A DNA stretch of 64,000 nt from Mycetocola zhadangensis (GTDB lineage: Bacteria > Actinomycetota > Actinomycetes > Actinomycetales > Microbacteriaceae), in the NCBI RefSeq assembly GCF_003668565.1, contig NZ_RCWJ01000001.1:1240001-1304000 (forward strand). The letters run 5' to 3'. The stretch's first letter is position 1. Each line of letters begins with the position of its first letter. Both the position numbers and the translations under genes were made by a program. Of the stretch, positions 5,256 through 48,460 are shown one piece after another. Below the pieces are notes generated by a model that ran no database searches, had not been told where the DNA came from, and saw only the letters and a program-made list of their open reading frames with translations.

Positions 5256-5272
5256 TCACCCGCGGAGCATGA
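5256..5272. promoter_or_regulatory. TCAYCC-N5-GGRTGA operator, site A (TCACCC/GCATGA)
   Basis: TCACCC-GCGGA-GCATGA has one mismatch to the window consensus. It lies 64 nt upstream of the 461-aa membrane protein (minus strand) and 120 nt upstream of the HerA-like ATPase (plus strand). The surrounding AGATCACCC...GAGCATGA context is nearly identical to site E at 30856. Confidence 0.6.
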
Positions 5273-5392
5273 GATCGCGAAAAAACGACATCGGGCCAAC
5301 CACTCGAACGTGCGGACGCTTGACGTACATCACGCCGCCACAATTAACTGTGAACTCCACCCGACTGGCCGCGAAATAAGGAGAGCCCACCG

Positions 5393-6814
5393 ATGAATGA
5401 TTCGCGATCGCCCGATGCTGATTTCTCCGCGGTCTCCCTCGACGGCCGGTACTTTCGATTCGCCGGGTCCATACGATCGGCGCTCGATCCTGGCGCGTTC
5501 GTCACACTTCTCTCAGACGACGGTACCCACCAGCTTGGACAGGTCGAAGAGGCCAGGTTCTCGATCGAAGACGGAGGCATGCAGGGTGCCGGCAGAATCC
5601 TTGGGTTGGTTTCGGAGGATGGCCAACACCTCGATCAGCGGCGTTCTCGCCCATTCGGTGGAGCCTCAGTTTCGCCCGCGGACGCCACAGCGGTCAAAGC
5701 GCTGTACGACAACCCGGTAGACGTCCTCGACATCGGGTCCTACCTCGCTCTGGCGGATCTTCCCGCTCACCTGCTCCCCCACAGGTTCAACCGACACACC
5801 TTCTGGTGCGGGCAGAGCGGATCGGGAAAGACATACGCGCTCGGAGTTGTTCTCGAGCAGATTCTGGTGCGCACCGGACTGCCAATGGTGATCTTCGACC
5901 CGAACGCCGACTTCGTGCGGCTTCGCGAAGCCAATTCCGGGGCGGGCGAGACGGATGCCACGCGAGCGCTTTCGAATCGCAACATTCGGATACTCCGTCC
6001 ATCGTCCCCCAACCCCGACTCCCTTCGTGTCCGGTTCATCGACTTGCCCCTGCGCGCGAAAGCCGCCGTGATGCGCCTGCACCCGCTCAATGACCGGGAC
6101 GAATACAACGAACTTGTCCACCTGGACGAGATGATCGGCTCGGTCGAAGGCAACGACGTCGTTTCGATGCTGCGCAGCCGAGGTTCAGCAGCCGCAGCGT
6201 CTCTGGCGGCACGTATCGAGAATCTGGGCCTGCTTGACTGGAATGTCTGGGCCCAGGGGTTCGAAGCGGTGACCGATATCCTCGACACGCGTCCTGACGC
6301 GACCGTGCTCGATTTGGGCGGTTTCGACAATCCCGACGAATCGCTCGTCGTGGCGATGGCGGTTCTCGACGACCTCTGGGCCAAGCGTGAGCAGCGACGC
6401 CCACTGCTCATCGTGATCGACGAAGCGCACAACCTCGGATCGCCGGATCAACACAGCCCACTGCACGTCGCTGTGCGTGAGCGACTCATTCAGATCGCCG
6501 CCGAGGGCAGGAAGTTCGGTTTGTGGCTCCTGCTGTCGACGCAGCGGCCGTCGCGGATTGATCCGAGCATTATCTCCCAGTGCGACAACCTCGCGCTGAT
6601 GAAAATGACGTCGCCGCTCGACCTTTCCGAGCTTGCGACCATTTTCGGATTCGTGCCAAGCGCGATGCTCGCGAGGGCCTCGCGGTTCCAGCAGGGTGAA
6701 GCGCTATTCGCCGGCGGGTTCACCGCTGCCCCAACGATGGTGCGCATGGGGCCGCGGCTTACCCGAGAAGGCGGAGCCGACGTTACAGTTCCGACCAGGT
6801 CCGCAGCGGATTAA
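5393..6814 (+). CDS. HerA-like (DUF87) P-loop ATPase
   Basis: A 473-aa FtsK/HerA-superfamily ATPase, a cytoplasmic ring-type DNA pump by family knowledge. An N-terminal ~110-residue beta-rich region may be a HAS-barrel. Walker A is GQSGSGKT at about 140-147, and the IFDPNADFVRLRE motif follows it. Walker B is LLIVIDEAHNL, with ST(Q)RPSRIDPSIISQC downstream as in HerA. AAGGAG lies 9 nt before the ATG. No nuclease partner (NurA, DUF4297, SIR2) is adjacent, so its role is open. It is divergent from the 461-aa membrane gene across operator A and may belong to the same regulon. Confidence 0.8.
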   Translation: MNDSRSPDADFSAVSLDGRYFRFAGSIRSALDPGAFVTLLSDDGTHQLGQVEEARFSIEDGGMQGAGRILGLVSEDGQHLDQRRSRPFGGASVSPADATAVKALYDNPVDVLDIGSYLALADLPAHLLPHRFNRHTFWCGQSGSGKTYALGVVLEQILVRTGLPMVIFDPNADFVRLREANSGAGETDATRALSNRNIRILRPSSPNPDSLRVRFIDLPLRAKAAVMRLHPLNDRDEYNELVHLDEMIGSVEGNDVVSMLRSRGSAAAASLAARIENLGLLDWNVWAQGFEAVTDILDTRPDATVLDLGGFDNPDESLVVAMAVLDDLWAKREQRRPLLIVIDEAHNLGSPDQHSPLHVAVRERLIQIAAEGRKFGLWLLLSTQRPSRIDPSIISQCDNLALMKMTSPLDLSELATIFGFVPSAMLARASRFQQGEALFAGGFTAAPTMVRMGPRLTREGGADVTVPTRSAAD

Positions 6815-6826
6815 GACTGCGAAAGC

Positions 6827-7210
6827 CTAGGCAACCGCACCAAGTGCCCGACTCTTCAGTCCGTCGAACTCTGCCTGGCTGATGGTTCCCGAATCGAGGA
6901 GCGTCTTCGCCTTCGCGATCTCCTCGACCGGTGAGCTCGATGCGACATTACGGATGTACTGGTCCGTCTCAGACCTGGCCTGATTCGCGGCGGCACGCTG
7001 GCGTTCGCTCATCCCCTTGCCACGGGCAATGAGATACACGAGGGCGGCCAGGAACGGAACGAACACCAGGAAGATCACCCACACCGCCTTCAATCCGCCG
7101 TTCAGGGTGTGGTCGCGGAAGATGTCGGCGATGATCCCGAAGAGAACCATCAGATAAGCGAAGAAGACGTAGCTCCAGAACACGAACACAATGAAGTCCC
7201 AGAAATTCAT
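6827..7210 (-). CDS. PLDc_N plus SHOCT domain small membrane protein (copy 1)
   Basis: 127 residues. Two membrane helices (residues ~5-30 and ~40-62) with the FRDHTLNGGLKAVWVIFLVFVP signature of PLDc_N. A short cytoplasmic linker leads to a C-terminal SHOCT helix pair (residues ~94-124: EEIAKAKTLLDSGTISQAEF). SHOCT domains mediate oligomerisation in other proteins. The paralogue at 12412 has the same architecture. It starts 79 nt from operator B1 and ends 12 nt from the convergent HerA-like gene. Confidence 0.85.
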   Translation of the reverse strand: MNFWDFIVFVFWSYVFFAYLMVLFGIIADIFRDHTLNGGLKAVWVIFLVFVPFLAALVYLIARGKGMSERQRAAANQARSETDQYIRNVASSSPVEEIAKAKTLLDSGTISQAEFDGLKSRALGAVA

Positions 7211-7289
7211 TTCAGGGCGACCTTTCCACGATAAACATCGGCGAAGTACGCCGATGGCCTGAATCTAATGAGCGACGGATGCCACTGCG

Positions 7290-7306
7290 TCACCCCGCGA
7301 GGATGA
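7290..7306. promoter_or_regulatory. TCAYCC-N5-GGRTGA operator, site B1
   Basis: TCACCC-CGCGA-GGATGA is an exact match to the consensus. It lies 79 nt upstream of the SHOCT gene start at 7210. A second copy (B2) follows 38 bp further on, towards the divergent ion-channel gene. Confidence 0.7.
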
Positions 7307-7327
7307 CCCGCTTCTTCCTCCAAACCC

Positions 7328-7344
7328 TCACCCCGACCGGATGA
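7328..7344. promoter_or_regulatory. TCAYCC-N5-GGRTGA operator, site B2
   Basis: TCACCC-CGACC-GGATGA is an exact match to the consensus, 64 nt upstream of the ion-channel ATG. B1 and B2 together give each divergent gene its own copy. Confidence 0.7.
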
Positions 7345-7408
7345 CGACGAGCCCTGAACTTCGCCGGTAGCATCCCGAGAACCGACCGGCGAAGCCAGGA
7401 GTGCAACG

Positions 7409-8110
7409 ATGATCAAGCCGCGTCGACATTCGCGCAGAAACAGCTCACCCGACAACGAATCCGCGGCGCCGCGACGGACGATCTGGCAGTCAGGATATTG
7501 GCTTGTGCTCGCTCTCCTGGCCACGTCATACGTGCTCTGCGCAAGCCAGACATCCCCGAAAACCAGCCTCCTCGCTCTCATGTTCCAGCTCGTCACTGTC
7601 GCGGTGACCCTGTGGGTGGCCGAGGTGGGTGTGCGCCTCCGACGGCTCGGGCTAATGCTCCTGGTTCTCGTCGCCTCGATTGTGGTTGCGGTCGAGATCG
7701 CCGCGCTCCAAAACACGATCCCTGCCGTCGTCCTCGCTTCAGCGTCCATGGTTGCGTACCTCGTCGCGCCTGTCGCGATCATCGCGCACCAACTACGCAA
7801 GGTTGTCGTCGATGGACAGACACTCCTCGCGTCCATCGCGGCCTACGTCATGGTTGGGATGTTCTTCACGTTCGTCTTCAACCTCATCGCTCTTCTGACG
7901 CCGACACCGCTCTTTGGGCCTGGGACCATAGACTCACTCACCGGTCAGTTGTTCTTCTCATTCACGACGCTGACAACGACCGGTTACGGCAACCTCGTGC
8001 CCGTCGGTGCCCTCGTTCAGAGCGTCGCGATTGCCGAGGCAATCACCGGTCAGCTGTTCCTGGTTATCGCGATCGCGCGGATCGTGTCCGGCTGGCAACC
8101 ACGCCGCTGA
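7409..8110 (+). CDS. Two-pore-helix-type ion channel (Ion_trans_2, K+-channel-like)
   Basis: 233 residues with about six hydrophobic stretches. The last pair frames a pore loop with the selectivity filter TTTGYGNLVP (filter near residues 189-195), the classic K+-channel signature. There is no RCK/TrkA domain, so gating is not explained. It would conduct K+ across the cytoplasmic membrane and may help restore potential during stress. AGGAG lies 7 nt before the ATG. Operator B2 is directly upstream, and the gene is divergent from the SHOCT gene. Confidence 0.85.
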   Translation: MIKPRRHSRRNSSPDNESAAPRRTIWQSGYWLVLALLATSYVLCASQTSPKTSLLALMFQLVTVAVTLWVAEVGVRLRRLGLMLLVLVASIVVAVEIAALQNTIPAVVLASASMVAYLVAPVAIIAHQLRKVVVDGQTLLASIAAYVMVGMFFTFVFNLIALLTPTPLFGPGTIDSLTGQLFFSFTTLTTTGYGNLVPVGALVQSVAIAEAITGQLFLVIAIARIVSGWQPRR

Positions 8111-8126
8111 GGTTCGCCGGTGTGAG

Positions 8127-8330
8127 TCATATCGGGTTGACCGATATCAACTCAATGTTAAGGTTGCCGAAAATCGTGAGGATGCCCTGCAGCCGGGACT
8201 GATCCGGGACCGTACCAACGAGGTGCGTTTCCCCGTGCTCTACCCGATGAATCCGAAACCCATCGATGAGATCGAGGACCGGCTCGCTCAGTGTGCCCTT
8301 GATAACGATCTCGAATGATTCACCGGTCAC
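8127..8330 (-). CDS. Conserved 67-aa small protein
   Basis: A short soluble protein with a GTG start at 8328-8330 preceded by GGAAAGG. It has an alternating beta/alpha pattern (FEIVIKGTLSEP, then RIHRVEHGETHLVGTVPDQ, then LQGILTIFGNLNIELISVN) that is well formed and looks selected. I recall similar small proteins beside ion channels and LuxR regulators in Actinobacteria, without a known function. It ends 16 nt from the convergent ion-channel gene and is divergent from the LuxR gene across operator L. It could be a small ligand-binding or partner protein. Confidence 0.65.
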   Translation of the reverse strand: MTGESFEIVIKGTLSEPVLDLIDGFRIHRVEHGETHLVGTVPDQSRLQGILTIFGNLNIELISVNPI

Positions 8331-8379
8331 AGCCAAACCTTTCCCCCCGCTAGTGTGCGAGCGCTGCCGACTCCCCGCG

Positions 8380-8396
8380 TCATCCGTCAAGGGTGA
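8380..8396. promoter_or_regulatory. TCAYCC-N5-GGRTGA operator, site L (LuxR promoter)
   Basis: TCATCC-GTCAA-GGGTGA is an exact match to the consensus, 100 nt upstream of the LuxR regulator and 49 nt upstream of the divergent 67-aa gene. It suggests the regulator controls its own promoter. Confidence 0.65.
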
Positions 8397-8400
8397 AGGC

Positions 8401-8436
8401 ACCCTAGTTGTGAGGGGTAGAGGAACCCTAGTTGTG
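8401..8436. repeat. Direct repeats ACCCTAGTTGTG in the LuxR promoter
   Basis: Two exact 12-bp copies (8401-8412 and 8425-8436) are separated by exactly 12 bp, giving a 24-bp period that places both on nearly the same face of the helix. The spacer holds GGGGTAGAGG (8414-8423), close to the enteric MalT box GGGGAKGAGG. It lies 60-95 nt before the LuxR ATG, just after operator L. Probably a second regulator site or an activator array. Confidence 0.55.
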
Positions 8437-8496
8437 CGCGGAAACTCTGGTCGCGGCAGGTCACTTATGCAACACTGACCGTGGAACGGAGATGCC

Positions 8497-10956
8497 ATGA
8501 GCGCTTCCAGCCATCCAACGACAAAAGAACACCTGATTGAACGACCGGCGCTTCTCGGTGTACTCGACGGAGCGCTGAACCGACGACTCACTCTCATCAC
8601 GGCGCAAGCCGGTGCGGGCAAGACCACGTTGCTGAAACAGTGGGCGACCACACACGCCGACCGCGCATTCACCCAACTCGACATCGAACCAGACGATGAC
8701 GACCCGGCTCGATTCGTGGGGCGCCTGGTCGCAGCACTCACGAAATCGCGACCGACGGTTGCTCGCGTGCCCCGGACTGCCGGGCCCCATAGCTCAGGTC
8801 TCGATTCCCATCTGAGTGCGACCCTCACGAGCGCGCTCGCAAAATCCCCAGAGACGGTTCTTCTGCTCGACGACGTTCACCGTTTCACCAACGTGTCGCT
8901 CGTGGCCGATCTCGGTCGCCTGATCGAACAGATGCCGGAGTCAGCCCACGTGGTGATGGCGTCGCGGGTGGACCCGCCCATCGCGCTCGGCAACCATCGC
9001 CTCAACGATGACCTTCTCGAATTGCGGCCCGCTCACCTCGCGTTCAGCGAACGTGAGTCCGCGGCATTCCTTGAACGAATCGTCGGTCGCCCAGTGGACC
9101 CGCAACAGGTCAGAGTGCTTCGGGAGAAGACGGAGGGGTGGGCAGCCGGCCTGCAACTTGCCGGTTTGCATCTCAGACACGAAGCCGATCCTGACGCGTT
9201 CGTCGCCCAGTTCAACGGTAGCGACCGACTGGTGGCCGACTACCTGGGTGAAGAGGTCATCGATGGACTTCCCCCTGAGCGGCGACACCTGCTCCTGAAA
9301 ATGTCTGCGCTCGATGACATGTGTGCAGGCCTTGTGGAAGCGGCGATCGGTCCGGTTTACGCGCAACAGGTGCTTGAGGAACTGGAACACGAATGCATGT
9401 TCCTCATCCCGCTCGACGCGCGGCGCCAGTGGTTCCGATTTCATCACCTGTTCTCGGAACTCCTGCGTTCCCGGCTCCGAGTCGAGAACCCTGCCGCTGA
9501 ACTACAGATCCTGACCGCCGCCGCCGACTGGCACCTCAGTCGGGGGCGCGTCAAGCCCGCGCTTGACTACCTTTTCCGCGCGCAAGCACGAGACGGAGCG
9601 ATGGAAGCGATGCTGACGTCCTCCGCGAACGACGCGACCGAACGCACGGAGACTACCGCCAACCTCGAGGCCGAGACCGCGGAGCTGTGGACATCTGACG
9701 TTGTGGACGAAGACTTGTTCGCGGGAGTGCGTCACGCGCGGCAGAGCGAATCCGCGTCAGCCCAGGAGATCAGCCCGCTGCCCGGGCCGTTCAGCACAGC
9801 CACGCCGCGTCGAGGGTGGGGATTCGTGGCTGCACAGGTTCTGTGGCGCACTCGCCCTGACATATCAACTGAAGAGGCCCAGTCAAAGGTGGCGACGCTC
9901 AGTAATTTGTCGACAGCTGCAGGCGCGCCATCTCCCGACCTCGCCGACGCGCTGGTTTCGGGCGGCCGAGCATATTTCCTTGCAGGAAACACCGATGAGG
10001 CTCGACGATGGCTCTCGATGGCGCTTCTCGCTGCATCCGGAGACGTCGTAGGTCGAGTCAGCGCTTTGAGCGCACTGTCTCTCGTCGAAGCCTGGTGCAG
10101 GAACACCGTCATCGCTGACCGCCTCGTGCGAGATGCGCTCGAGACAGCGCGCGACGCAGGGATGCTGGCGCAGCCCGCCATCGCCGACGCCCACCTCGCC
10201 GCTGTTCTGACCTCGCTGGAGCCCGGAAAAGCCGTCGTCTCGACGACGCTGCCCGAATTGCGACACAGCCACAGCCCACCCGACTCCTTCCCCGCAGAAA
10301 CCGGGAGCCCCGGCGAGGAAAAAGTGCGACACCCGCTGGTGCCTCGCACGGCCACACGCCCGGACAACGCCGATCTCGGAGCGTTCGAGTCACCGAAGCT
10401 CGTTCCTACGGTGCTCTTTGACCGTGCCGCGGCCTCCATCTCGCTCGGTGACACAGAGCTCGCTCGCGAGGTCGTCGAAGCCTGGGACGAACTCGTTCAG
10501 GTTCACACTCCGCTGTCGGTTGTCCAACATCACATCCTCCGAGCCCGTCTGGCCGGGGTCGACGAAATGCCGGATGAATCCATTCGCCACCTGACCGCCG
10601 CTCTTCAAATCGCTGAAGTCCACGGTTTCGTTGACGTCTTCGTGCAAGCCGGGCCGTTGATTCTTCAACGTCTCTCGATGCTTTCCGGACCGCAATCGGC
10701 CTTCAGCGACATAGTGCGCACTCGCGCTCGCCGGGAGCTGGAGCCGTCACCAGTCGGGCTCAGCGAACCGCTAACGGAACGGGAATTAGAGGTACTCGCG
10801 TTTCTTCCGACCCGGTATACGAACCTGGAATTGGCACGTCGGTTCTTCGTTTCGGTCAACACCATCAAAACCCACATGGCGCACATCTATCGCAAACTGG
10901 ACGCAACAACGAGGGACAACGCCATCGAACGCGCCCGCGAGCTCGGTCTCCTGTAG
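8497..10956 (+). CDS. MalT/LAL-type LuxR transcriptional regulator
   Basis: A large ATP-dependent regulator of 819 residues, the usual size for LAL proteins. The N-terminal STAND-type ATPase has Walker A AQAGAGKTT (residues ~36-44) and a Walker B-like VLLLDDVHRF. A helical repeat region of about 450 residues (TPR-like, inducer-binding in MalT) follows. The C-terminal LuxR helix-turn-helix begins LTERELEVLAFLP and contains FVSVNTIKTHMAHIYRKL. Its own promoter carries operator L and the ACCCTAGTTGTG repeats. I infer it recognises GGRTGA half-sites at the eleven operators in this window, because MalT boxes contain GGAKGA. The inducer is unknown. Confidence 0.85.
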   Translation: MSASSHPTTKEHLIERPALLGVLDGALNRRLTLITAQAGAGKTTLLKQWATTHADRAFTQLDIEPDDDDPARFVGRLVAALTKSRPTVARVPRTAGPHSSGLDSHLSATLTSALAKSPETVLLLDDVHRFTNVSLVADLGRLIEQMPESAHVVMASRVDPPIALGNHRLNDDLLELRPAHLAFSERESAAFLERIVGRPVDPQQVRVLREKTEGWAAGLQLAGLHLRHEADPDAFVAQFNGSDRLVADYLGEEVIDGLPPERRHLLLKMSALDDMCAGLVEAAIGPVYAQQVLEELEHECMFLIPLDARRQWFRFHHLFSELLRSRLRVENPAAELQILTAAADWHLSRGRVKPALDYLFRAQARDGAMEAMLTSSANDATERTETTANLEAETAELWTSDVVDEDLFAGVRHARQSESASAQEISPLPGPFSTATPRRGWGFVAAQVLWRTRPDISTEEAQSKVATLSNLSTAAGAPSPDLADALVSGGRAYFLAGNTDEARRWLSMALLAASGDVVGRVSALSALSLVEAWCRNTVIADRLVRDALETARDAGMLAQPAIADAHLAAVLTSLEPGKAVVSTTLPELRHSHSPPDSFPAETGSPGEEKVRHPLVPRTATRPDNADLGAFESPKLVPTVLFDRAAASISLGDTELAREVVEAWDELVQVHTPLSVVQHHILRARLAGVDEMPDESIRHLTAALQIAEVHGFVDVFVQAGPLILQRLSMLSGPQSAFSDIVRTRARRELEPSPVGLSEPLTERELEVLAFLPTRYTNLELARRFFVSVNTIKTHMAHIYRKLDATTRDNAIERARELGLL

Positions 10957-10976
10957 AGCCCTCGGAAGCCGCGCGT

Positions 10977-12218
10977 TCACATGGGCAACTCGTCAGGCAG
11001 CGGCGCTGGCTTGCGAGCACTGGATTTGCGCTCGTTGCGCTCGCGTTTGTGAGCCGATCTCTGAAGCCGAGTGTCGGCATCCGTTGCCTTCATAATGCCT
11101 TTCGCCTCGTCGATGTCCCCCGTCAGTGGTCGCCACCTCGCAGCGTTCGGGTCGGCATCGAGCAGGATCGCGCGAACCAGCAGCGTCAGCGGCACGGCAA
11201 GCACAGCCCCGACAGGACCGAGGACCGGCGTCCAGAACAAAACCGAGACGAAAGTGATCGTCTGGTTCAGTGCGACGACATTGCTGACAAGGAAGGGTTG
11301 CACGATCGACTGCACGATCACGTTGATGATGCCGTAGACGAGGATGACCGCGATGGCCGTTGGCCAGCCGCCGACGAGCAAGCCAAAGATCGTTGGCGGG
11401 ATGATCGCGAGGAAATAGCCAACGTTGGGAATGTAGCTGCAGATGAACGAGAGCAGCGACCACAGGAGCGGTGCGGGGACTCCGAGGATCACGAGGGCGA
11501 TGAAGTTCATGGTGCTTTGCAGCAGGCCAAGGCCTGTGGCGGCGACCATGTAGCGCCGGACGCTGGCGGCGTATCCGACGAGCGCGGCGACGAGCGTCGG
11601 ACGAATCCGGCGGAGCTGGGAGAGGAGCGTCGGCAAGTAGGTCGCGTCGAGCGCCATCAGCATAACGAGTGTGAGGATGACGACGAGCGAGAACACGATG
11701 CCCGTGAGCCCTCCGAGCAGTCCGGCTACGAAGTCGAGGAGGTTAGCTGGCTCAAGCCCCGTGATTATCGTGTCCGCTGTTTTCGCGCCTACCCCGATTT
11801 TTTCGAGCCAGGCCGCGAAGTCCTGCCCGATTTGCTCGAGCTGCGTCACGTATTGAGGCAGCAGGGTGGTGAACTGGGTCAGTGCGATGAGGAGGGCGGC
11901 AACGAAGCCGGCGAGCAGCGCGAACACGAGCAGGATTGCGAGAATGGTCGCAACTCCTCGAGGTACCCGGATTCGCTCAAGAGCGCCTCGAACGGGGTGC
12001 GCGCAGATGGTCAGGACAAGTGAAAGGGCGACAGGCGCGGCAACGGTCTGCACCGCCGCGAGGCCGAAGAGCGCTGCTGCTCCCCCACCGAGGCTGAGGA
12101 GAATGATGGTCGCGCGCGGGAGTGTTCCTGGGCTTTCGCTGTAATCGTTCGACTCGGGTTGAGGCGGTCGCGCTACGTCAGGCGAGCGTTCGCCGCGACG
12201 CCAGAAGCGTAGATTCAT
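10977..12218 (-). CDS. AI-2E-family transporter (PerM-like permease)
   Basis: About 413 residues with eight hydrophobic segments. The family pattern includes PVALSLVLTICAHPVRGALE, a long central region with coiled helices (LLPQYVTQLEQIGQDFAAWL), and the late signature GVPAPLLWSLLSFICSYIPNVG. Families of this type export AI-2 or exchange small solutes; the substrate here is unknown. I start at the ATG at 12218 (GAGG upstream); an in-frame extension to 12362 would run through operator C. The C-terminus is basic (KRERNERKSSARK). Convergent with the LuxR gene. Confidence 0.8.
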   Translation of the reverse strand: MNLRFWRRGERSPDVARPPQPESNDYSESPGTLPRATIILLSLGGGAAALFGLAAVQTVAAPVALSLVLTICAHPVRGALERIRVPRGVATILAILLVFALLAGFVAALLIALTQFTTLLPQYVTQLEQIGQDFAAWLEKIGVGAKTADTIITGLEPANLLDFVAGLLGGLTGIVFSLVVILTLVMLMALDATYLPTLLSQLRRIRPTLVAALVGYAASVRRYMVAATGLGLLQSTMNFIALVILGVPAPLLWSLLSFICSYIPNVGYFLAIIPPTIFGLLVGGWPTAIAVILVYGIINVIVQSIVQPFLVSNVVALNQTITFVSVLFWTPVLGPVGAVLAVPLTLLVRAILLDADPNAARWRPLTGDIDEAKGIMKATDADTRLQRSAHKRERNERKSSARKPAPLPDELPM

Positions 12219-12322
12219 AATTCCATCCTCGAAGCACGTCCGCGGCTCTGCGGTCCCGACTTTGTGGCAACCTAGCACTCGGCACAGGGTTTCACCACGG
12301 TTGCTGAAGTCCGCCGCAAATG

Positions 12323-12339
12323 TCATCCGTGACGGGTGA
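12323..12339. promoter_or_regulatory. TCAYCC-N5-GGRTGA operator, site C
   Basis: TCATCC-GTGAC-GGGTGA is an exact match to the consensus. It lies 72 nt upstream of the SHOCT gene at 12412 and 104 nt from the divergent AI-2E gene. Confidence 0.7.
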
Positions 12340-12411
12340 CTGCAAGCGGTGAAGGGCTCCACTAGGTTTCAGCTGACGAGAGTTCGCCTGCGAGCGAAGG
12401 AGTGAGCTGAC

Positions 12412-12795
12412 ATGAACTGGTTCAACGATTTCTGGGACGTCATTGTCTGGTTTTTGTGGATTTATGTCGTCCTCGCCTACCTGATCACGATCGTGTTCGT
12501 GCTCGGCGACATCTTCCGCGACCATTCGCTGAGTGGCTGGCTGAAAGCACTCTGGGTCATCTGTCTGGTCTTCGTTCCCATCCTCACAGTCCTCGTCTAT
12601 GTCATAGCTCGTGGGAAGGGCATGAGCGAACGCAACGCGAGGGGTCCAGTCACGGTGTCCGAACCCGATGACTACCACCCACACATCTATTCCCCCAGCC
12701 CGACTGACCAGATTGCCCAAGCTCAGGGCCTTTTAGCTTCGGGGTCGATCACCGCGGACGAGTTCGCCGCACTCAAAGCAAAGGCCATGGCCTAG
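12412..12795 (+). CDS. PLDc_N plus SHOCT domain small membrane protein (copy 2)
   Basis: 127 residues, the same length and layout as the protein at 6827-7210. Two N-terminal membrane helices carry FRDHSLSGWLKALWVICLVFVP, followed by a polar linker and a C-terminal SHOCT motif (DQIAQAQGLLASGSITADEF). AAGGAGTGAG precedes the ATG. The GAP-family gene follows by 67 nt, probably in the same transcript. Operator C is directly upstream. Confidence 0.85.
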   Translation: MNWFNDFWDVIVWFLWIYVVLAYLITIVFVLGDIFRDHSLSGWLKALWVICLVFVPILTVLVYVIARGKGMSERNARGPVTVSEPDDYHPHIYSPSPTDQIAQAQGLLASGSITADEFAALKAKAMA

Positions 12796-12862
12796 CCGCT
12801 ACGCGACGGCCGGAGCGTGATGAGCAAACGGCGCAGTCCGACCGAACCGCGTGCGAGCAAGC

Positions 12863-13525
12863 ATGACCACCGTCATCGCCCAGATCCTGCCACTCGCGAT
12901 CGCCGTCGCTCTCAGTACGGTGCCCATCATCGCGACAATTCTGATCCTGCTGTCCGATGCGAAACCGCTGGTGAGTATCGCCCTCCTCATCGGCTGGGCA
13001 TGTGGAATGGCAATTATCCTGACCGCCCTGACCATCGGGGTTGCTCTCATCCCCGCTGCGACTCCGGCGAGGAATGACACGACAGTCGGGGTGATCCGTA
13101 TCGTCCTCGGCACTGCATTGCTCATATACTCCATCGGCAAATGGCGCACCAGGTCGAAGGGACCGTCTGCAGCGCCACGATGGATGGATGCGTTGGGGAG
13201 AATCACCTCAGGCGGCGCTTTCGGATTCGGCGCGGCGCTCGCGTTGCGTCCGAAGAACATTGTCCTCTCGTTTGCGGGCGCAATCGTGATCGGGGATGCT
13301 TCGCTTCCAATGGGAGACGTCTTCATCGTCGTCTTGATCTTCACACTCATCGGGGTGTCAACGGTCGCTGCGCCGATCATTGGACACTTCTCCGCACCGG
13401 AAAAGACCAAGCAGCCCCTGGATGCAACCCGTAACTGGATTGTGAGGAGCGGCAGCTCCCTGATGCTCGCCGTAGCTCTCATGGTCAGTGCCATCATCAT
13501 CGGCTCCGGCATCGCAATTCTGTAA
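12863..13525 (+). CDS. GAP-family (Sap/LysE-like) membrane protein
   Basis: About 220 residues and six membrane segments, starting TVIAQILPLAIAVALSTVPIIATILILL. The central basic loop (KWRTRSKGPSAAPRWMDAL) and the following GFGAALALRPKNIVL motif match the actinobacterial GAP family, relatives of LysE-type exporters. The substrate is unknown; mycobacterial relatives act in glycolipid export. The start ATG at 12863 is chosen over an upstream GTG because the first membrane segment begins there. Follows the SHOCT gene. Confidence 0.75.
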   Translation: MTTVIAQILPLAIAVALSTVPIIATILILLSDAKPLVSIALLIGWACGMAIILTALTIGVALIPAATPARNDTTVGVIRIVLGTALLIYSIGKWRTRSKGPSAAPRWMDALGRITSGGAFGFGAALALRPKNIVLSFAGAIVIGDASLPMGDVFIVVLIFTLIGVSTVAAPIIGHFSAPEKTKQPLDATRNWIVRSGSSLMLAVALMVSAIIIGSGIAIL

Positions 13526-13588
13526 GCGAGGAACGCTGAAGTCTCGGATCCGAAGCGCTATTCCGACGATCGCATTGTGTCGGCACAA

Positions 13589-13605
13589 TCACCCCGACGG
13601 GGTGA
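13589..13605. promoter_or_regulatory. TCAYCC-N5-GGRTGA operator, site D (extended palindrome)
   Basis: TCACCCCG-A-CGGGGTGA is a perfect palindrome with 8-bp arms and a single central base, the best-formed copy in the window. It is 137 nt upstream of the DUF7144 gene at 13743. A lone TCACCC half-site follows at 13609-13614. Confidence 0.75.
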
Positions 13606-13742
13606 CGCTCACCCGGGCCCGAAGGAGGAGTGTCGCGGCAGAGGAGGAAGCCGTCTCGCAGACGGACGCTCATCGGTTGCTCTGCTCCACCCGGTTCAGC
13701 TTCGATCGATGCCCTCTCCATTCGGAAGAAACGGAGAAAGAA

Positions 13743-14153
13743 ATGAGCGAAGCACGAGCAACAACGTCAGAAGGAACCGGCGGGTGGGTCAGCTTCGCCG
13801 CCACCATCCTCATCCTCAGCGGAGCGTTCAGCCTCATCCAGGGGTTCATCGCCCTTATCGGATCCAACGTCTACTACACCGTTGAGGGCGGAACCCTCTT
13901 CCTGTTCGACCTCACCGGGTGGGGGTGGTGGAACCTCATCGTCGGAATCGTTCTTCTCCTCACCGGATTTGCCGTACTGACAGGCGCCACGTGGGCGCGC
14001 GTGCTGGCGATCATCGCGGCCGGGCTCAGCGCGATCGGGCAAATGCTGATTCTCCCCGCACAGCCGTGGTGGTCGGTCATCATCATCACGGTCGACATAC
14101 TCATCATCTATGCGGTAACCGCCCACGGCCGGGATCTCCCGCTCGCAGAGTGA
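13743..14153 (+). CDS. DUF7144-family small membrane protein (copy 2)
   Basis: 136 residues with four hydrophobic segments and the family signatures GWVSFAATILILSGAFSLIQG, DLTGWGWWNLIVGIVLLL and LPAQPWWSVIIITVDILIIY. It is clearly paralogous to the genes at 3350 and 32337. The ATG at 13743 follows GGAGAAAG. It is monocistronic under operator D, with a terminator-like hairpin after it. Confidence 0.85.
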   Translation: MSEARATTSEGTGGWVSFAATILILSGAFSLIQGFIALIGSNVYYTVEGGTLFLFDLTGWGWWNLIVGIVLLLTGFAVLTGATWARVLAIIAAGLSAIGQMLILPAQPWWSVIIITVDILIIYAVTAHGRDLPLAE

Positions 14154-40258: not shown

Positions 40259-40807
40259 CTGTACTCCTCTATGAGTCTCGGTGGACCATCGCGATTGGAT
40301 GCCGATGGATTAATTAATAATTCATGCTTATTTATTATTTCACAAGAGCAAATCTCCAACTCGATGCAGGTCGCGGCATCGAATCGATTGTCCAGACTCC
40401 CGCGCACCCGCTTCGGGATATCGATGATCACGGCGATTGCGCCGGCCTAAAAGACGCAGCGCGCTGATGCGGCCGCCCCCGAAATGGGGTCAAAAGTACA
40501 ACCCACTCGTACTGCGCTCCCCGTCTCCCCTACCCGGGCACGTGCACCCTTTTGGCGAGCACAGGTTTCTCCATCGACCATCGCGCGAACCGTGAAGAGC
40601 GTCCGCACCTTGCCATTCACCCGGCGCACTCCGGCCTTCGACTCGGTGCCTCAGTTCGAGGCGCGGCGATTTCAGCACAGGTAGACGGCTTACTTCACCC
40701 GACTGTCCGGAGCGGCCATGTCATACGGTTCGGGCGAGGTGGCCGGGTCGAGGCGTTGGTACCGTGGCGCCCGCTCGCACAAATGACCACTGAAAGTGAG
40801 GACAAGA
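40259..40807. other. 549-nt intergenic region, operators but no gene
   Basis: The divergent control region of the amino-sugar operon and the glutamate decarboxylase gene. It contains the AT-rich palindrome at 40315-40337, an AGTAC/GTACT repeat (40495-40513, spacer 9) and a GCACGTGC palindrome (40538-40545). A lone TCACCC at 40693-40698 lacks the second half-site. I see no gene. Confidence 0.5.
40315..40337. promoter_or_regulatory. AT-rich palindromic operator of the amino-sugar operon
   Basis: TAATAA (40315-40320) and TTATTA (40332-40337) are inverted with an 11-bp spacer in a strongly AT-rich stretch, rare in this DNA. It lies 57 nt upstream of the binding-protein start. Mlc/NagC-type ROK regulators bind A/T-rich palindromes, so the ROK protein at 34263 is a candidate binder. 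Confidence 0.5.
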
Positions 40808-42220
40808 ATGTCCACCGCCGATCCCTTTGAGCCAATACACGGGGGCGAAGCCTTCCGTACACATATCGACCCGTTCACCTTTCCTGAGAACTCACTTCCT
40901 CCTGACGAGGCCTACGAACTCATCCACACCGGGCTCATGCTCGACGGACGCGAGACGCTCAACCTTGCATCGTTCGTCACGACATGGATGGAACCCCAGG
41001 CAGAACAGCTGATCCACGACTCGCTGCGCAAGAATCACATAGACCACGAGGAGTATCCGGCCGCTTCGTTGATCGAGGAAGCGTGCGTGCACATGCTGGG
41101 TGATCTGTTCAACGCCCCTGACCCTGCTGAGGTGGTCGGTGTTGCCACCATTGGATCTTCCGAAGCCATCATGCTTGGCCTTCTCGCGCACAAGCGAAGC
41201 TGGCGTGATCGACGCCAGTCCGAGGGGCTGTCAACGGATCGACCCAACGTTGTGTTCGGTGCGGAAACCCACGTTGTGTGGGACAAGTTCGCCAACTACT
41301 TCGATGTGGAAATGCGCAAAATTCCCATGCGACCTGACCGGTACGTCATGAGCGCAGACGACGTCGAAGAGCAGGTAGACGAGAACACGATCGCCGTGGG
41401 CGTTGTTCTCGGCACGACTCACATCGGCGAGGCAGACCCGATCCCTGAGATCAATGAGCGATTGCTGCGCCTGAAAGCCGAGAAGGGGTGGGACATCCCG
41501 ATTCACGTTGATGGCGCGAGCGGTGCTTTCATCGCCCCATTCGCTCACCCCGACTATTTATTCGACTTCCGACTCGAGCAGGTCGCGTCGATCAACGCGT
41601 CCGGGCACAAGTACGGCCTGGTATACCCGGGCGTCGGTTGGCTCGTGTTCCGTGACCGGTTCCAGCTCCCCGAAGATCTGGTTTTCAGCGTCAACTATCT
41701 AGGGGGCGCCCAACCCACGTTCACCTTCAACTTCTCGCGTGGCTCGGCAATGATCCAAGCTCAGCTGTACAACTTCCTCCGCCTCGGTCGCAACGGCTAT
41801 AAGTCGATCGTCGCCAACATGCTGGACAACGCGCGCCATCTAAACGAGCGTCTCGAGGCGAGCGGCTGGTTCGAAATCCTCAATCCCGGGCTCAGCGAAC
41901 CGGTGGTGACGTTCCGACTCAGGAACGATTCTGACTTCACGGTCTACGATCTGTCGGCCCGGCTCCGCGAGCACGGCTGGATCGTGCCCGCGTACAGCCT
42001 CCCGCCGAACGCGGAGGACGTTCATCTCATGCGAGTGGTAGTGCGCCTCGACCTCAGCCGACAAATGGTCGACATGCTGATTCGTGATATCGAGGATGCC
42101 TGTACTCACTTGTCGGAGGAAAAGCCTGCGACGCGCAAACACACGAGCCCGGATCTATGGACGGCCCCCGCTCTGATGGCGGCCCACCAGAAAGCCCGCA
42201 CTGGCCAACGCCGGGCTTGA
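40808..42220 (+). CDS. gadB: Glutamate decarboxylase
   Basis: 470 residues, a PLP-dependent enzyme converting glutamate to GABA and CO2 while consuming a proton. The PLP lysine is in SINASGHKYGLVYPGVGW (K about 268), with HVDGASGAF before it and ATIGSSEAIMLGLLAHK for PLP phosphate. The length matches bacterial GadB. It is directly followed by a membrane protein (1 nt gap) that is not a GadC antiporter. The enzyme may give acid resistance. Confidence 0.9.
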   Translation: MSTADPFEPIHGGEAFRTHIDPFTFPENSLPPDEAYELIHTGLMLDGRETLNLASFVTTWMEPQAEQLIHDSLRKNHIDHEEYPAASLIEEACVHMLGDLFNAPDPAEVVGVATIGSSEAIMLGLLAHKRSWRDRRQSEGLSTDRPNVVFGAETHVVWDKFANYFDVEMRKIPMRPDRYVMSADDVEEQVDENTIAVGVVLGTTHIGEADPIPEINERLLRLKAEKGWDIPIHVDGASGAFIAPFAHPDYLFDFRLEQVASINASGHKYGLVYPGVGWLVFRDRFQLPEDLVFSVNYLGGAQPTFTFNFSRGSAMIQAQLYNFLRLGRNGYKSIVANMLDNARHLNERLEASGWFEILNPGLSEPVVTFRLRNDSDFTVYDLSARLREHGWIVPAYSLPPNAEDVHLMRVVVRLDLSRQMVDMLIRDIEDACTHLSEEKPATRKHTSPDLWTAPALMAAHQKARTGQRRA

Positions 42221-42221
42221 G

Positions 42222-43130
42222 ATGCACAAGCCCTCCCGGTCGAGCGCACTGGGTCTCAATGTTCCCGCAGGCTGGCACCTGGGTCAGGTTGACGGCCCGC
42301 CGTTCTTTGCAACCCGTGCAGTGGTCAGACGCCCTGATGGGACGGAGATCGATTGGAGCACGCGGCGTCACCGCAAAGGGCTCGCGCCGATGGCGACAGA
42401 AAATCGCCCCGTTCGCCGCCTTCGGGACCTAATGCGCGGAGCGACGCTGTCCAGTTGGTGCATAGGCGGCCTGTTCATGGTCGGGGCTTTCTGTTTCGCG
42501 CTCGGCTCGCTTCCGGCATTTTTCAACCTTGCCGATTCCGCGCTCGTCGCGTGGGTGTTCTTCGGTGGGTCGATTTTCTTCACGGTCGCGAGCTACCTGC
42601 AGTTCCGGGAGTGCCTTGCTGCGCCGGAGACGATCGACCCGGCAGGTTCACGCAAACAAGGTTTGCGCTACCTCGTCGGGTGGCGAACGCGCAGCCTCGG
42701 CTGGTGGGCTACGGCGATTCAGCTTGCCGGAACGATCCTCTTCAACATCAGCACGTTCGCGGCAACCCGGCAGGACCTTGCGGTTGATCAGGAGCGGAAA
42801 CTCATTTGGGCGCCCGACTTCTGGGGATCAGCGTGCTTCCTCATCGCCAGCGTGCTCGCGTACGTTGAGGTCTCTCCGCGAATCTGGAGGCACCCCCGGC
42901 GCGATCTCGGGTGGCATATCGCACTACTCAACCTCGTCGGATCGGTAGCGTTTGGGCTGGCGGCCATTGGTGCGCGCTATCTGCCCACGACGTCGGAGCC
43001 CGCGAACATTGCACTGGTCAACGCCGGCACGTTCGTCGGTGCTGTGTGCTTTTTCGTCGGCGCTGCGCTGTTACCAGCCGAATCTGCTGGCTCGGAGCGC
43101 GCGCCGAAAGTGGCTTCGAACATGAACTGA
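42222..43130 (+). CDS. YrhK-like multi-pass membrane protein
   Basis: 302 residues. A polar N-terminus of ~75 residues precedes about six membrane segments (GGLFMVGAFCFALGSLPAFF, FFGGSIFFTVASYLQF). The GSLPAFF..FGGSIFF..ASYLQF pattern matches the YrhK domain, seen with acid-stress genes. It starts 1 nt after the glutamate decarboxylase stop (translational coupling), suggesting a joint acid-response role. Confidence 0.65.
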   Translation: MHKPSRSSALGLNVPAGWHLGQVDGPPFFATRAVVRRPDGTEIDWSTRRHRKGLAPMATENRPVRRLRDLMRGATLSSWCIGGLFMVGAFCFALGSLPAFFNLADSALVAWVFFGGSIFFTVASYLQFRECLAAPETIDPAGSRKQGLRYLVGWRTRSLGWWATAIQLAGTILFNISTFAATRQDLAVDQERKLIWAPDFWGSACFLIASVLAYVEVSPRIWRHPRRDLGWHIALLNLVGSVAFGLAAIGARYLPTTSEPANIALVNAGTFVGAVCFFVGAALLPAESAGSERAPKVASNMN

Positions 43131-43167: not shown

Positions 43168-43184
43168 TCACCCCGGCAGGGGGA
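43168..43184. promoter_or_regulatory. TCAYCC-N5-GGRTGA operator, site G
   Basis: TCACCC-CGGCA-GGGGGA has one mismatch. It is preceded by CAAGA, as is site F, and lies 113 nt upstream of the DUF4239 gene. Confidence 0.55.
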
Positions 43185-43297: not shown

Positions 43298-44122
43298 GTG
43301 AACGTTCTCGTCGGCTTTGCTGTCGTGATCGCGATCACCGCTGTCACCGTCACCGCAATGTTGCTCGTCCGCAGACGTGCTCCGTCTGGCAGCTATTTCA
43401 GTGATGGCGACCGGGCATCCGGGGTTTTCGGCGTGCTGGCCACCGGCTTTTCTGTGCTCCTTGGTTTCATAATTGTGATCGCCTTTCAGTCTTATGACGA
43501 ATCGCGGGCGGGAGCAGAGGCGGAGGCCGCGATCGTGGCTCAGCAGGTCCAGACCGCCCAATTCTTACCAGCGGACGCTGCTGAGGATCTGACCGGTCAA
43601 CTCGTCTGTTACGCGCGTTCGGTGATCGGCCCTCAATGGGATGCCTTGGAGCGGGGGCAATTGAGTGAGTCCATTAACCCCTGGGGCGGGCAGATGTACC
43701 TCACTATCAAGGCGGTTGATCCGGAAACCCCCGTCGAGCAGTCAGCTTACGACCGATGGATGGATCAGACGGGAGAACGAGAACAGGCGCGACTCGATCG
43801 AATACACGCGGCTGGAGGACTCATCCCTTTACCTCTGTGGATCGCTCTTTTCACAATCTTTGCCGCAATCCTTGTCTATATGTTGTTCTTCGCCGATCCG
43901 GACGAGGGACCGGCAACCCAAGGCATGCTGATGGGGAGCGTCACTCTGACCATCAGCACCCTTCTGGTACTTCTTGTCTTCTTCAATAATCCGCACGGCC
44001 CGGGTGTCGGACAGCTCCGTCCGACAGCGATGGAGCGCGCAACCCGGATCATCGACGCCGAGCTCGACTTTGTCGGGCTGAACCTGAACCCACCATGTGA
44101 CAGCAATGGCATCGCGCGCTGA
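43298..44122 (+). CDS. DUF4239/bestrophin-like membrane protein
   Basis: 274 residues with membrane segments at both ends (VLVGFAVVIAITAVTVTAMLLV, FGVLATGFSVLLGFIIVIAF, then two near residue 180). The central soluble region and VQTAQFLPADAAEDLTGQLVCYARSVI are typical of DUF4239 (bestrophin-like). The GTG at 43298 has AAGGAGGAG upstream, a strong RBS. It overlaps the gene at 44106 and sits under operator G. The function is unknown; it may be an anion channel. Confidence 0.7.
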   Translation: MNVLVGFAVVIAITAVTVTAMLLVRRRAPSGSYFSDGDRASGVFGVLATGFSVLLGFIIVIAFQSYDESRAGAEAEAAIVAQQVQTAQFLPADAAEDLTGQLVCYARSVIGPQWDALERGQLSESINPWGGQMYLTIKAVDPETPVEQSAYDRWMDQTGEREQARLDRIHAAGGLIPLPLWIALFTIFAAILVYMLFFADPDEGPATQGMLMGSVTLTISTLLVLLVFFNNPHGPGVGQLRPTAMERATRIIDAELDFVGLNLNPPCDSNGIAR

Positions 44123-44832: not shown

Positions 44833-46374
44833 TCAGTCCCCGCCAGCGATGAACGCTTCGAGCTTCGCGACCGCTTGATCAATGCCGAATGTCGCGGCTT
44901 TCTGCCGGGGAGGAAACTCCTCGAACGTTGTCAGGAACCGAGATATGAGAGCTTGGGAAGCGAGAATCAGATAGGCATTCTCGAGGATCCAGTTGTAGTA
45001 CGTGTTCGAGGTTACGTCTGCGCGCTCGAACGGGTCGGTACGCAGGTTGTAGAGCTTCGGCACCCGCAAGGTGACAAATGGGTCCGCCCATACCGCAAGT
45101 GTCCCCGCCGTGCGTTGCTCCATAAAGACGACCTTCCAATTGTCAAAGCGAAGTGCAAGAACGTCGCCGTCGTCCGAGAAGTACACAAGACCTTTCCGAG
45201 GGCTCTCTTCCTCTTCCCCGGTCAGATAGGGCAACAAGTTGTAACCGTCGATGTGGACCTTGAAAGTGGCGTCGCCGATGGCTTTACCCGCCTTCAGCTC
45301 CTCGACAGTAGTTGTGTCCCCTGCCGCGGCGAGGAACGTGGGCAACCAGTCGTGGTGCTGCACGATCTCGTTTGACACTGTTCCGGCGGGGATGTGACCT
45401 GGCCATCGCACCATTTCCGGGACACGGAAGGCGCCCTCCCAGTTTGTGTTCTTTTCGCTGCGAAACGGAGTCATTCCTGCATCGGGCCAGCTATTCATAT
45501 GCGGCCCATTGTCGGTGGAGTAGATCACAATGGTGTCGTCCGCGATGCCAAGCTCGTCCAGTTGATCAAGGAGATCCCCAACGAGCGCGTCGTGATCGAT
45601 CATCGTGTCGTGATACTCGGACTGCCACCGACCGGCTTGACCAACACTCTCGGGCTTGGGATGTGTCCTGAAATGCATGTGTGTGGTGTTCATCCACACG
45701 AAGAACGGCGTGTCCGAGCTGACCTGACGACTGATGAAGTCTTGAGCGGCCGCCGCGAACTCCTCGTCGATCGTCTCCATCCGCTTCTTGGTCAGCGCGC
45801 CGGTGTCCTCGATTCGTTGCTTGCCCCGGCGGCCGTATCGTCCGTCCTCCGTGTCGTCATCCTCGTCGGTCGCCCACGAGCGGATGACCCCGCGCGGACG
45901 AGCGTGCGCGTTGAAGTCAGGGAAATCCCTCTCGGAGGGCCAATTCACCGCCTCCGGCTCCTCCTCCGCATTCAGGTGGTACAGATTGCCGTAGAACTCG
46001 TCGAACCCATGCACGGTGGGAAGATATTCGTTCTTGTCACCGAGGTGGTTTTTGCCGAACTGTCCGGTTGCGTATCCGAGCGGTTTCAGCACTTCAGCAA
46101 TTGTCGGGTCCTCGGGCTGAAGGCCGACGTCGGCCCCGGGCATGCCAACTTTGCTCAACCCGGTCCTGAATACGCTCTGCCCGGTGATGAACGAACTCCG
46201 CCCAGCGGTGCAGCTTTGCTCGCCGTACGAATCGGTGAACCGCATTCCTTCCTCAGCAATGCGGTCGATGTTCGGCGTCCGATACCCCATCAGCCCGTCG
46301 CTGTAGCAACTCAGATTTGTGATTCCGATGTCATCTCCCCAGATGACCAGAATGTTCGGCTTCCCGTTGGGCAT
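44833..46374 (-). CDS. Type I sulfatase (arylsulfatase family)
   Basis: 513 residues. The active-site motif is SYGEQSCTAGRSSFITGQS: C55-T-A-G-R, the C-x-A-x-R form in which Cys becomes formylglycine. Metal ligands are in LVIWGDDIGIT and IYSTDNGPHMNSW. No signal peptide is visible. It hydrolyses a sulfate ester; the substrate is unknown. GGAGGAG precedes the ATG. Operator H is 85 nt upstream. The FGE at 23689 is the likely activator. Convergent with the DUF4337-like gene. Confidence 0.9.
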   Translation of the reverse strand: MPNGKPNILVIWGDDIGITNLSCYSDGLMGYRTPNIDRIAEEGMRFTDSYGEQSCTAGRSSFITGQSVFRTGLSKVGMPGADVGLQPEDPTIAEVLKPLGYATGQFGKNHLGDKNEYLPTVHGFDEFYGNLYHLNAEEEPEAVNWPSERDFPDFNAHARPRGVIRSWATDEDDDTEDGRYGRRGKQRIEDTGALTKKRMETIDEEFAAAAQDFISRQVSSDTPFFVWMNTTHMHFRTHPKPESVGQAGRWQSEYHDTMIDHDALVGDLLDQLDELGIADDTIVIYSTDNGPHMNSWPDAGMTPFRSEKNTNWEGAFRVPEMVRWPGHIPAGTVSNEIVQHHDWLPTFLAAAGDTTTVEELKAGKAIGDATFKVHIDGYNLLPYLTGEEEESPRKGLVYFSDDGDVLALRFDNWKVVFMEQRTAGTLAVWADPFVTLRVPKLYNLRTDPFERADVTSNTYYNWILENAYLILASQALISRFLTTFEEFPPRQKAATFGIDQAVAKLEAFIAGGD

Positions 46375-46459: not shown

Positions 46460-46476
46460 TCACCCGCATCGGGTGA
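46460..46476. promoter_or_regulatory. TCAYCC-N5-GGRTGA operator, site H (sulfatase)
   Basis: TCACCCG-CAT-CGGGTGA is a palindrome with 7-bp arms that matches the consensus exactly. It is 85 nt upstream of the sulfatase gene start. Confidence 0.7.
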
Positions 46477-48082: not shown

Positions 48083-48141
48083 GAGAACCTCTTTCGTGAT
48101 TCACGATCAGCGACCGCCAGCGCGACGGTCCGGGTGCGTTT

Positions 48142-48339
48142 TCAATCAAATGCAGAGAGCGGATGCTGTACGGTCGCGGCTTCGTGGACCGCCTTCGATG
48201 GGCGAAGGCGCACGCTCGCAACCCGCGAAAGGGCCGCGAAGGTCGAGGATGATTCGCCGATCCGTGTCGTCGACGACGACGCGGCTCGAGCTCCGGGTGG
48301 AGGAACGACTCCCCCGGACTTCGAATCCACAGCCGGCAT
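48142..48339 (-). CDS. Doubtful small ORF below operator I
   Basis: A 65-codon frame from ATG 48339 with GAGGAG upstream. The product is low-complexity at first (PPPGARAASSSTTRIGESSS) and has no recognised domain. Its third-position G+C, counted by eye, is about 65%, lower than in nearby genes. Its only support is the RBS and the position 104 nt from operator I. It may not be real. Confidence 0.25.
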   Translation of the reverse strand: MPAVDSKSGGVVPPPGARAASSSTTRIGESSSTFAALSRVASVRLRPSKAVHEAATVQHPLSAFD

Positions 48340-48443
48340 TCTCACTCCTCGTCGGTTCCGAACCACAGTGTGAAGCGCCCAGAGCTGACGCCCGGGCTAC
48401 GTGCTTCTGCTGACAGCGTGCTCTCCGCGAACAGATCGTCGCC

Positions 48444-48460
48444 TCACCCCTGCCGGGTGA
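48444..48460. promoter_or_regulatory. TCAYCC-N5-GGRTGA operator, site I
   Basis: TCACCC-CTGCC-GGGTGA is an exact match to the consensus. The nearest starts are the doubtful ORF (48339, minus, 104 nt) and the hydrolase (48641, plus, 180 nt). The controlled gene is unclear. Confidence 0.65.

Follow-up and report, generated by a model that had tools for sequence, protein, structure and literature searches.

A recurring palindrome as probable operator of a MalT-type regulon in Mycetocola zhadangensis

In Actinoplanes sp. SE50/110, the LAL protein MalT (ACSP50_3915) acts on a regulon named 'MRLGR', in which 17 start sites have the palindrome TCATCC-N5-GGATGA ending 34.4 nucleotides (nt) ahead of them (Droste et al. 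2020, PMC7567727). According to the main text of that report, deletion of malT lowered 42 of the 51 genes of the region and overexpression raised 39, the maltose genes were unaffected, and regions with homologous genes and the motif were present in four other Micromonosporaceae. The MalT box is given as GGA(T/G)GA (PMC9628970, PMC7567727). The LAL protein SCO6993 of Streptomyces coelicolor binds palindromes, including one at its own promoter, and represses; no common consensus was found (PMC9628970). Here, a 64-kb stretch of the Mycetocola zhadangensis genome (Microbacteriaceae; assembly GCF_003668565.1, contig NZ_RCWJ01000001.1, positions 1,240,001 to 1,304,000; hereafter the window) was analysed, in which a first-pass annotation had listed 11 copies of the inverted repeat TCAYCC-N5-GGRTGA and taken them for a shared control element not known to be described. 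Going by the main text of the 2020 report (PMC7567727), the same element, the type of regulator and the promoter position overlapping the -35 region were already known from Actinoplanes. The open-licence literature held no recognised report of the motif outside the Micromonosporaceae. As far as that literature goes, the presence of the motif in Microbacteriaceae and further families, its recurring targets, a class-wide composite rule of site plus -10 hexamer and a LAL-linked small protein are new. The same holds for the target set (PLDc_N/SHOCT, DUF7144, DUF6325, sulfatase, AI-2E and glutamate decarboxylase genes) and for two weak window sites at 40721 and 28735.

The window shares with the Actinoplanes region, as described there, the palindrome and its overlap with the -35 region (seen here as a -10 hexamer 22-23 nt past the site), a LAL gene lying within a large gene cluster whose members are mostly unrelated and poorly annotated, and a gene order that is scrambled between species. 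Since the -10 distance fits the start-site distance in Actinoplanes, the window was read as a member of that type of regulon. In contrast to the published motif, the consensus here is TCAYCC/GGRTGA, degenerate at positions 4 and 14, with the TCACCC form being commoner. The Actinoplanes targets (arginine deiminase pathway, amino acid permeases, peptidases; PMC7567727) were not among the 25 commonest of the 76 Pfam families found here, and the words SHOCT, sulfatase and DUF were not found in the main text of PMC7567727, on which the comparison of targets rests. From the E. coli maltose regulon the window differs in that no maltose gene is among its targets and that the half-sites form an inverted pair with a fixed 5-nt gap, although its half-site GGRTGA resembles the MalT box. 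SCO6993 resembles the proposed regulator as a LAL protein with palindromic sites that extend to its own promoter, binding being predicted here, whereas its printed sites, inspected by eye, lack GGRTGA pairs.

The pattern TCAYCC-N5-GGRTGA was scanned on both strands of the window and of the genome (3,322,056 bases). The window held seven exact copies, whereas 100 dinucleotide shuffles gave 0.04 on average and never more than 1. All 11 listed copies were present (seven exact, four with one mismatch), and a further one-mismatch site, 30925, had been missed. With up to two mismatches allowed, 21 matches were obtained (seven exact, five with one and nine with two mismatches; shuffles: mean 10.3, maximum 20); the nine two-mismatch matches, taken alone, are at chance level. 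Half-site pairs at spacings of 0 to 13 nt other than 5 were not found in the window. A scan of the whole genome and of relatives had been proposed in the first-pass annotation; the genome contained 10 exact sites (reversed control: 0), and site number tracked the presence of a LAL protein in 149 relatives, as set out below. Seven of the 10 exact sites lie inside the window, the other three being C1:840587, C1:842182 and C1:1229568, and the element is thus concentrated in this window. With up to one mismatch, the genome gave 43 matches versus 10 for the reversed control.

Gene placement relied on a crude open reading frame (ORF) caller. All seven exact copies were placed between likely genes; the caller put site 13589 within an ORF, but the DUF7144 reading in the same frame begins at the ATG at 13743, downstream of the site. 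The distance to the next gene, previously called fairly constant, was 64-104 nt for nine starts (7210, 7409, 8497, 12412, 12218, 46374, 5191, 31014 and 32337) and larger for four others (5393, 120 nt; 13743, 137 nt; 48641, 180 nt; a bestrophin-like gene, 113 or 173 nt depending on the start chosen).

The proposed reader of the palindrome is the 819-residue product of gene 8497-10956 (plus strand), which combines a STAND-type ATPase, a candidate MalT-like TPR region and a LuxR-type helix-turn-helix (HTH). Its ATPase module matched AAA_22 with 33 bits (cut-off 27), showed the Walker A motif GAGKT in the alignment and aligned with MalT of PDB entry 8bob at an E-value of 5.7e-45. The C-terminal HTH reached 42.6 bits for GerE (cut-off 23.5), and the TPR region 37.4 bits for TPR_MalT (E 2.3e-9), under the cut-off of 45. 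E. coli MalT is similar in domain order, in the ATPase part (34% identity over 363 residues), in the HTH, which aligns, and in its half-site; unlike it, the window protein scored 299.2 bits on the NCBIfam MalT model, below the cut-off of 537, and fell on another branch of a LAL tree. Judged from these matches, the product is classed as a MalT-like LAL protein, not as MalT itself. Within the tree of 55 LAL proteins, it fell among nine that grouped together (SH-aLRT 100) and that each had a site either upstream or no more than 10 kb away. Of the 19 rows in a wider group (support 88), 17 had such a site, compared with 2 of the 36 rows outside. The branch of E. coli MalT was long.

For the co-occurrence analysis, 149 relatives were scored for exact sites and for a LAL protein, which was counted as present when a match reached the ATPase part at E ≤1e-15. 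This applied to 33 genomes, including the window's own. On average, 3.58 exact sites were found in the LAL genomes and 0.59 in the 116 others (Mann-Whitney p 6e-8), and at least four sites occurred in 13 of 33 versus 0 of 116 genomes; the reversed control gave 0.15 and 0.19 matches per genome, respectively. Linkage was determined for the 16 genomes that had a LAL gene plus at least three sites, using distances to the listed LAL matches: 37 of 103 sites lay within 10 kb of such a match (1.0 expected) and 13 within 1 kb (0.19 expected). The proportion was uneven among genomes, with G004 contributing four of four. Furthermore, named genomes were scanned with the LAL alignment, and the best 80 of 502 loci were kept. 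These contained 15 exact sites (control: 0), all within the six top-ranked loci, which came from Okibacterium sp. HSC-33S16, an Acidimicrobiaceae bin, Agromyces luteolus, Agromyces allii, a Microbacterium bin and Microbacterium fluvii. In all six, the LAL match was preceded by a site at a distance of 92-463 nt; the remaining 74 were without an exact site. Beyond the Microbacteriaceae, exact sites were present in six other families of the order (genomes G093, G102, G106, G123, G128 and G146) and in the Acidimicrobiaceae bin. In the family of genome G296, the strict pattern was found in two of 22 genomes.

Association with targets was assessed independently of the motif by taking the upstream 400 nt of 79 homologs of the PLDc_N/SHOCT gene. 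An exact site was found for 13 of 47 homologs in LAL genomes and for 1 of 32 in others (p 0.006). When sites within 200 nt with up to one mismatch, or with two mismatches and a -10 hexamer, were counted, the numbers were 22 of 47 and 1 of 32, and the reversed pattern gave 0 of 79.

Promoter geometry was determined for 113 exact sites (226 flanks) from 21 sources that had been chosen for having a LAL gene and sites, with 10 of the 11 sites of G093 included. At offsets of 22 and 23 nt past the site, the hexamer TANNNT started in 21 and 19 flanks, respectively (40 in total), whereas the other 68 offsets yielded 30 occurrences altogether (about 0.4 each) and never more than three. At least one flank of 38 sites, from 14 of the 21 sources, was of this kind. 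Because the -10 hexamer stands at a fixed 22-23 nt past the site, the site takes the position of the -35 box, in the style of a class II activator. Among relatives, 36 promoters of this kind had TAGCGT as the most frequent -10 letters; the half-sites tended to be extended to A-TCAYCC in 20 of the 36 and to GGRTGA-TGC in 24, 23 and 22 of the 36, letter by letter. A composite of site and -10, derived with the help of genomes G000 and G093, was found at 37 places in 24 of 296 genomes of the class (control: 3), or at 31 places in 22 genomes without these two. Exact window sites with a -10 at 22 or 23 nt were 7290 (minus strand), 7328 and 12323 (both plus strand); a fourth case in the genome was C1:842182.

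Overlap with the -35 region would be compatible with a steric repressor no less than with a class II activator, and a repressing LAL protein has been reported (SCO6993, PMC9628970). A repressor at the sites is nevertheless unlikely. Between site and -10, no -35 hexamer stood out in the 36 promoters of relatives, and a scan of positions 5000-15000 for the sigma-70 consensus found no promoter (shuffles: 1.8), so that these promoters should be weak without help; moreover, MalT of Actinoplanes is described as activating from the same position (PMC7567727). Still less credit, close to none, is given to a non-regulatory interspersed or terminator-like element. Short intergenic inverted repeats can be terminators or mobile repeats, but conservation around the sites was nearly limited to the 12 half-site bases and accompanied by the fixed -10 downstream, the same gene families recurred behind sites in many genera, and the most frequent distance from site to start codon was 70-79 nt (32 of the 147 downstream readings described below). 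Positions 5000-15000 contained 10 terminator-like matches, not one of which overlapped a site.

It is therefore considered very probable that the sites are operators of a MalT-type regulon read by the LAL protein 8497-10956 as an activator. The earlier proposal that one element is common to unrelated genes, with a LuxR-type protein as its likely reader, gained support from the relatives, the linkage and the promoter geometry. In the mechanism we infer, the LAL protein, with its ATP-binding STAND module, putative TPR sensor and LuxR-type HTH, would be switched on by some ligand and would then bind the two GGRTGA half-sites, which lie one helical turn apart, as a dimer or higher oligomer. Where TANNNT stands at 22-23 nt, it would cover the -35 region and recruit RNA polymerase in class II fashion. 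In this way it may serve scattered targets and probably controls its own gene as well.

A number of observations weigh against this interpretation. Just three of the seven exact window sites have a -10 at 22 or 23 nt; those of the LAL, sulfatase and DUF7144 (13743) genes do not, including site 8380 of the LAL gene itself, whose composite score was outside the 32 best of the window in the LAL direction and 16.0 in the opposite direction. According to the uncurated caller, 38 of the 113 fetched exact sites lie inside ORFs, some of which seem spurious or overlong. The clustering in the LAL tree is partly built in, because the unnamed loci (those of the G genomes) were mostly fetched for having sites. 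An exact site precedes the PLDc_N/SHOCT gene of G064, which was counted as LAL-free (best LAL match 6e-12), and among glutamate decarboxylase homologs of the 149 relatives, a site was found for three of 28 (0 of 16 in genomes without LAL), with the share in LAL genomes being three of 12. At the LAL locus, neither Actinoplanes aureus (L133) nor Micromonospora echinofusca (L152), both from the family for which the motif has been reported, had a site; the 19-kb locus L133 contained no exact site and no composite score above 15. Linkage was absent in G005 (0 of 10) and G070 (0 of 3) and low in G093 (1 of 11), and G136, which has a LAL gene and three sites, none of them on the contig of the LAL match, stood outside the linkage count, which becomes 37 of 106 if it is included. 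In G005, some of the 10 sites precede expected genes (PLDc_N/SHOCT, DUF6325), with none within 10 kb of the only ATPase-reaching LAL match listed for this genome, which belongs to another branch of the tree.

The many sites of G005 and G093 with little or no LAL linkage, and the position of the LAL gene itself behind a site, would be accommodated if another DNA-binding protein, such as a LuxR/NarL-type response regulator or a second LAL protein, read the palindrome and the LAL gene were merely one of its targets. This is held to be improbable, if somewhat less so than repression, given that site number tracks LAL genes over 149 genomes, that sites cluster around LAL genes, that the half-site corresponds to the MalT box and that the precedent described in Actinoplanes is a LAL protein.

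Target families were surveyed in 147 downstream readings (fetched and class-wide sites) with the crude caller and Pfam at E 0.001; 42 of the 147 were singletons. The ranking, which covers the 25 commonest of 76 Pfam families, was led by PLDc_N (19), SHOCT (18), sulfatase (12), DUF6325 (11), the sulfatase-related SGSH_C (9) and DUF7144 (8), followed by pyridoxal decarboxylase, DUF1254, DUF1214, DUF1269 and AAA_22 (7 each), AI-2E (5) and LuxR HTH (4). Many of the recurring targets are membrane proteins. Four genomes (G286, G250, G424 and G305) were read further around strict or composite matches, and genes were scanned in the first three. In all three, a LAL gene was present, and genes for sulfatase, DUF7144, PLDc_N/SHOCT or DUF6325 proteins lay close to sites; G286 additionally had a Na+/H+ exchanger and a mechanosensitive channel. 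Glutamate decarboxylase was rejected as a universal member of the regulon, with a site at only three of the 28 homologs.

These results extend the regulon reported in Micromonosporaceae (PMC7567727, main text) to the Microbacteriaceae, to six further families of the order and to the Acidimicrobiaceae bin. For several actinobacterial protein families without known function, they supply a regulator that can be tested and a composite rule for the promoter. Scanning for the site together with its -10 recovers the regulon even in distant members of the class, so that the functions of DUF7144, DUF6325 and PLDc_N/SHOCT proteins can be approached in this way. That the regulon serves envelope, ion or pH homeostasis is a guess that we regard as rather doubtful; it is prompted by the glutamate decarboxylase, the channels and the cardiolipin synthase, together with the arginine deiminase pathway described among the Actinoplanes targets (PMC7567727), and is weakened by the fact that glutamate decarboxylase is a target in few genomes. 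On a broader and tentative reading, to which slightly more weight is given while it still falls short of being probable, the sites may belong to a stress regulon of ancient origin that spans the actinobacterial class. In it, STAND activators of the MalT-like kind, together with a small conserved partner, would act via TCAYCC-N5-GGRTGA-N22/23-TANNNT to switch on recurring core genes for envelope, ion or pH balance; the core would comprise uncharacterised proteins, most of them membrane proteins (PLDc_N/SHOCT, DUF7144, DUF6325, DUF1269), sulfatases, channels and glutamate decarboxylase. If so, the sugar-use function of 'MalT' would be a special case of this type of regulator.

The gene cluster of the window holds two PLDc_N/SHOCT and three DUF7144 genes. 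Exact site 7290-7306 (minus strand), with the -10 TAGATT at 7262-7267, is 79 nt from the start of gene 6827-7210 (minus strand), which codes for a PLDc_N protein with a SHOCT match below the cut-off. Its neighbour 7328-7344 (plus strand), with the -10 TAGCAT at 7368-7373, is 64 nt from the start of the ion-channel (Ion_trans_2) gene 7409-8110 (plus strand). Site 8380-8396, which is not assigned to a strand, is 100 nt away from the LAL start on one side and 49 nt away from a divergent ORF of 67 amino acids on the other. Site 12323-12339 (plus strand), with the -10 TAGGTT at 12363-12368, precedes by 72 nt the second PLDc_N/SHOCT gene (12412-12795, plus strand), whose two domain matches are just below the cut-off and whose product is 54% identical to that of 6827-7210; on its other side, the AI-2E family transporter gene 10977-12218 (minus strand) begins with its ATG at 104 nt. 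Two further exact sites are without TANNNT at 22 or 23 nt, namely 13589-13605 (plus strand), before the DUF7144 gene 13743-14153 (plus strand), and 46460-46476 (minus strand), 85 nt before the sulfatase gene 44833-46374 (minus strand). The target of the last exact site, 48444-48460 (no strand assigned), is uncertain; an alpha/beta hydrolase gene (48641-49543, plus strand) and an MFS gene (minus strand) lie at 180 and 361 nt, respectively.

The one-mismatch site 5256-5272 (no strand assigned) lies 64 nt from the gene 3806-5191 (minus strand), which encodes a 461-residue protein and is followed by the DUF7144 gene 3350-3769, and 120 nt from the HerA-like ATPase gene 5393-6814 (plus strand). Sites 30856-30872 and 30925-30941 (both plus strand) stand 141 and 72 nt, respectively, before the gene 31014-32180 (plus strand) for a DUF998-like protein, whose match is below the Pfam cut-off. 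Site 32218-32234 (plus strand), with TAGACA in place of TANNNT at 32258-32263, is 102 nt before the DUF7144 gene 32337-32756 (plus strand). The cardiolipin synthase gene (32774-34246, plus strand; TIGR04265, 309 bits, cut-off 290), which had been counted among the genes preceded by a copy, has no site directly before it and follows that DUF7144 gene. Site 43168-43184 (plus strand) precedes the gene 43358-44122 (plus strand), previously labelled DUF4239 and here assigned to a bestrophin-like protein, or a longer reading of it that starts 113 nt past the site.

Weak sites were scored with a matrix trained without the window's genome, for which the reversed window gave a maximum of 12.0, and two-mismatch sites were kept only if they had a proper -10 and a score well over this value. 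This left 40721-40737 (plus strand; score 19.7), with the -10 TACCGT at 40760-40765, which is 70 nt before the glutamate decarboxylase gene 40808-42220 (plus strand; TIGR01788, 586 bits, cut-off 380), and 28735-28751 (minus strand; score 18.0), with the -10 TAGCGT at 28706-28711, which is 35 nt before an ORF of 97 amino acids (28406-28699). A candidate at 14193 was discarded, its score of 12.7 being too near the reversed-window maximum. A gene for a YrhK-domain protein (42222-43130) lies directly behind the glutamate decarboxylase gene. The decarboxylase shares 77% identity with G146:C1:653282-654673, from a genome of another family, but no more than 51% with its counterparts in the 26 remaining relatives of the listing, pointing to gene transfer.

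The 67-residue ORF divergent from the LAL gene (8127-8330, minus strand) belongs to a family of small proteins that was found within 1.5 kb of 35 of 80 LAL loci and in one of 30 control loci, the controls being shorter. In 27 of the 35, a copy lies just downstream of the LAL gene on the same strand. Members were also present at L095, L099, L180, L199, L207 and L214. No fitting curated family was found for the ORF in Pfam or NCBIfam, nor for three relatives in Pfam. The protein is possibly a partner of LAL regulators.

A spacing-0 form of the palindrome, TCACCCGGGTGA, which has the same half-sites without the gap, was observed about 30-135 nt after the LAL match in 12 mycobacterial loci (L114, L115, L116, L121, L129, L130, L131, L137, L156, L157, L159 and L166). 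The best 80 of 502 LAL loci contained 50 copies (reversed control: 0). Because it was almost confined to mycobacterial loci and mostly stood downstream of the LAL start (39 of 50 copies), this form was rejected as the same motif and treated as a different one.

Pairs of sites 38 nt apart occurred in three genomes (window, 7290/7328; L095, 8807/8845; L222, 4975/5013); in the window and in L095 they lie between the same divergent PLDc_N/SHOCT and ion-channel genes, and in L222 beside a LAL gene. The genes for the 461-residue protein, which is without a Pfam match, and the HerA-like ATPase flank site 5256 in back-to-back orientation (3806-6814), and homologs of the two were found behind exact sites in G128 and G102 (L218, 4984-6342; L210, 577-1662).

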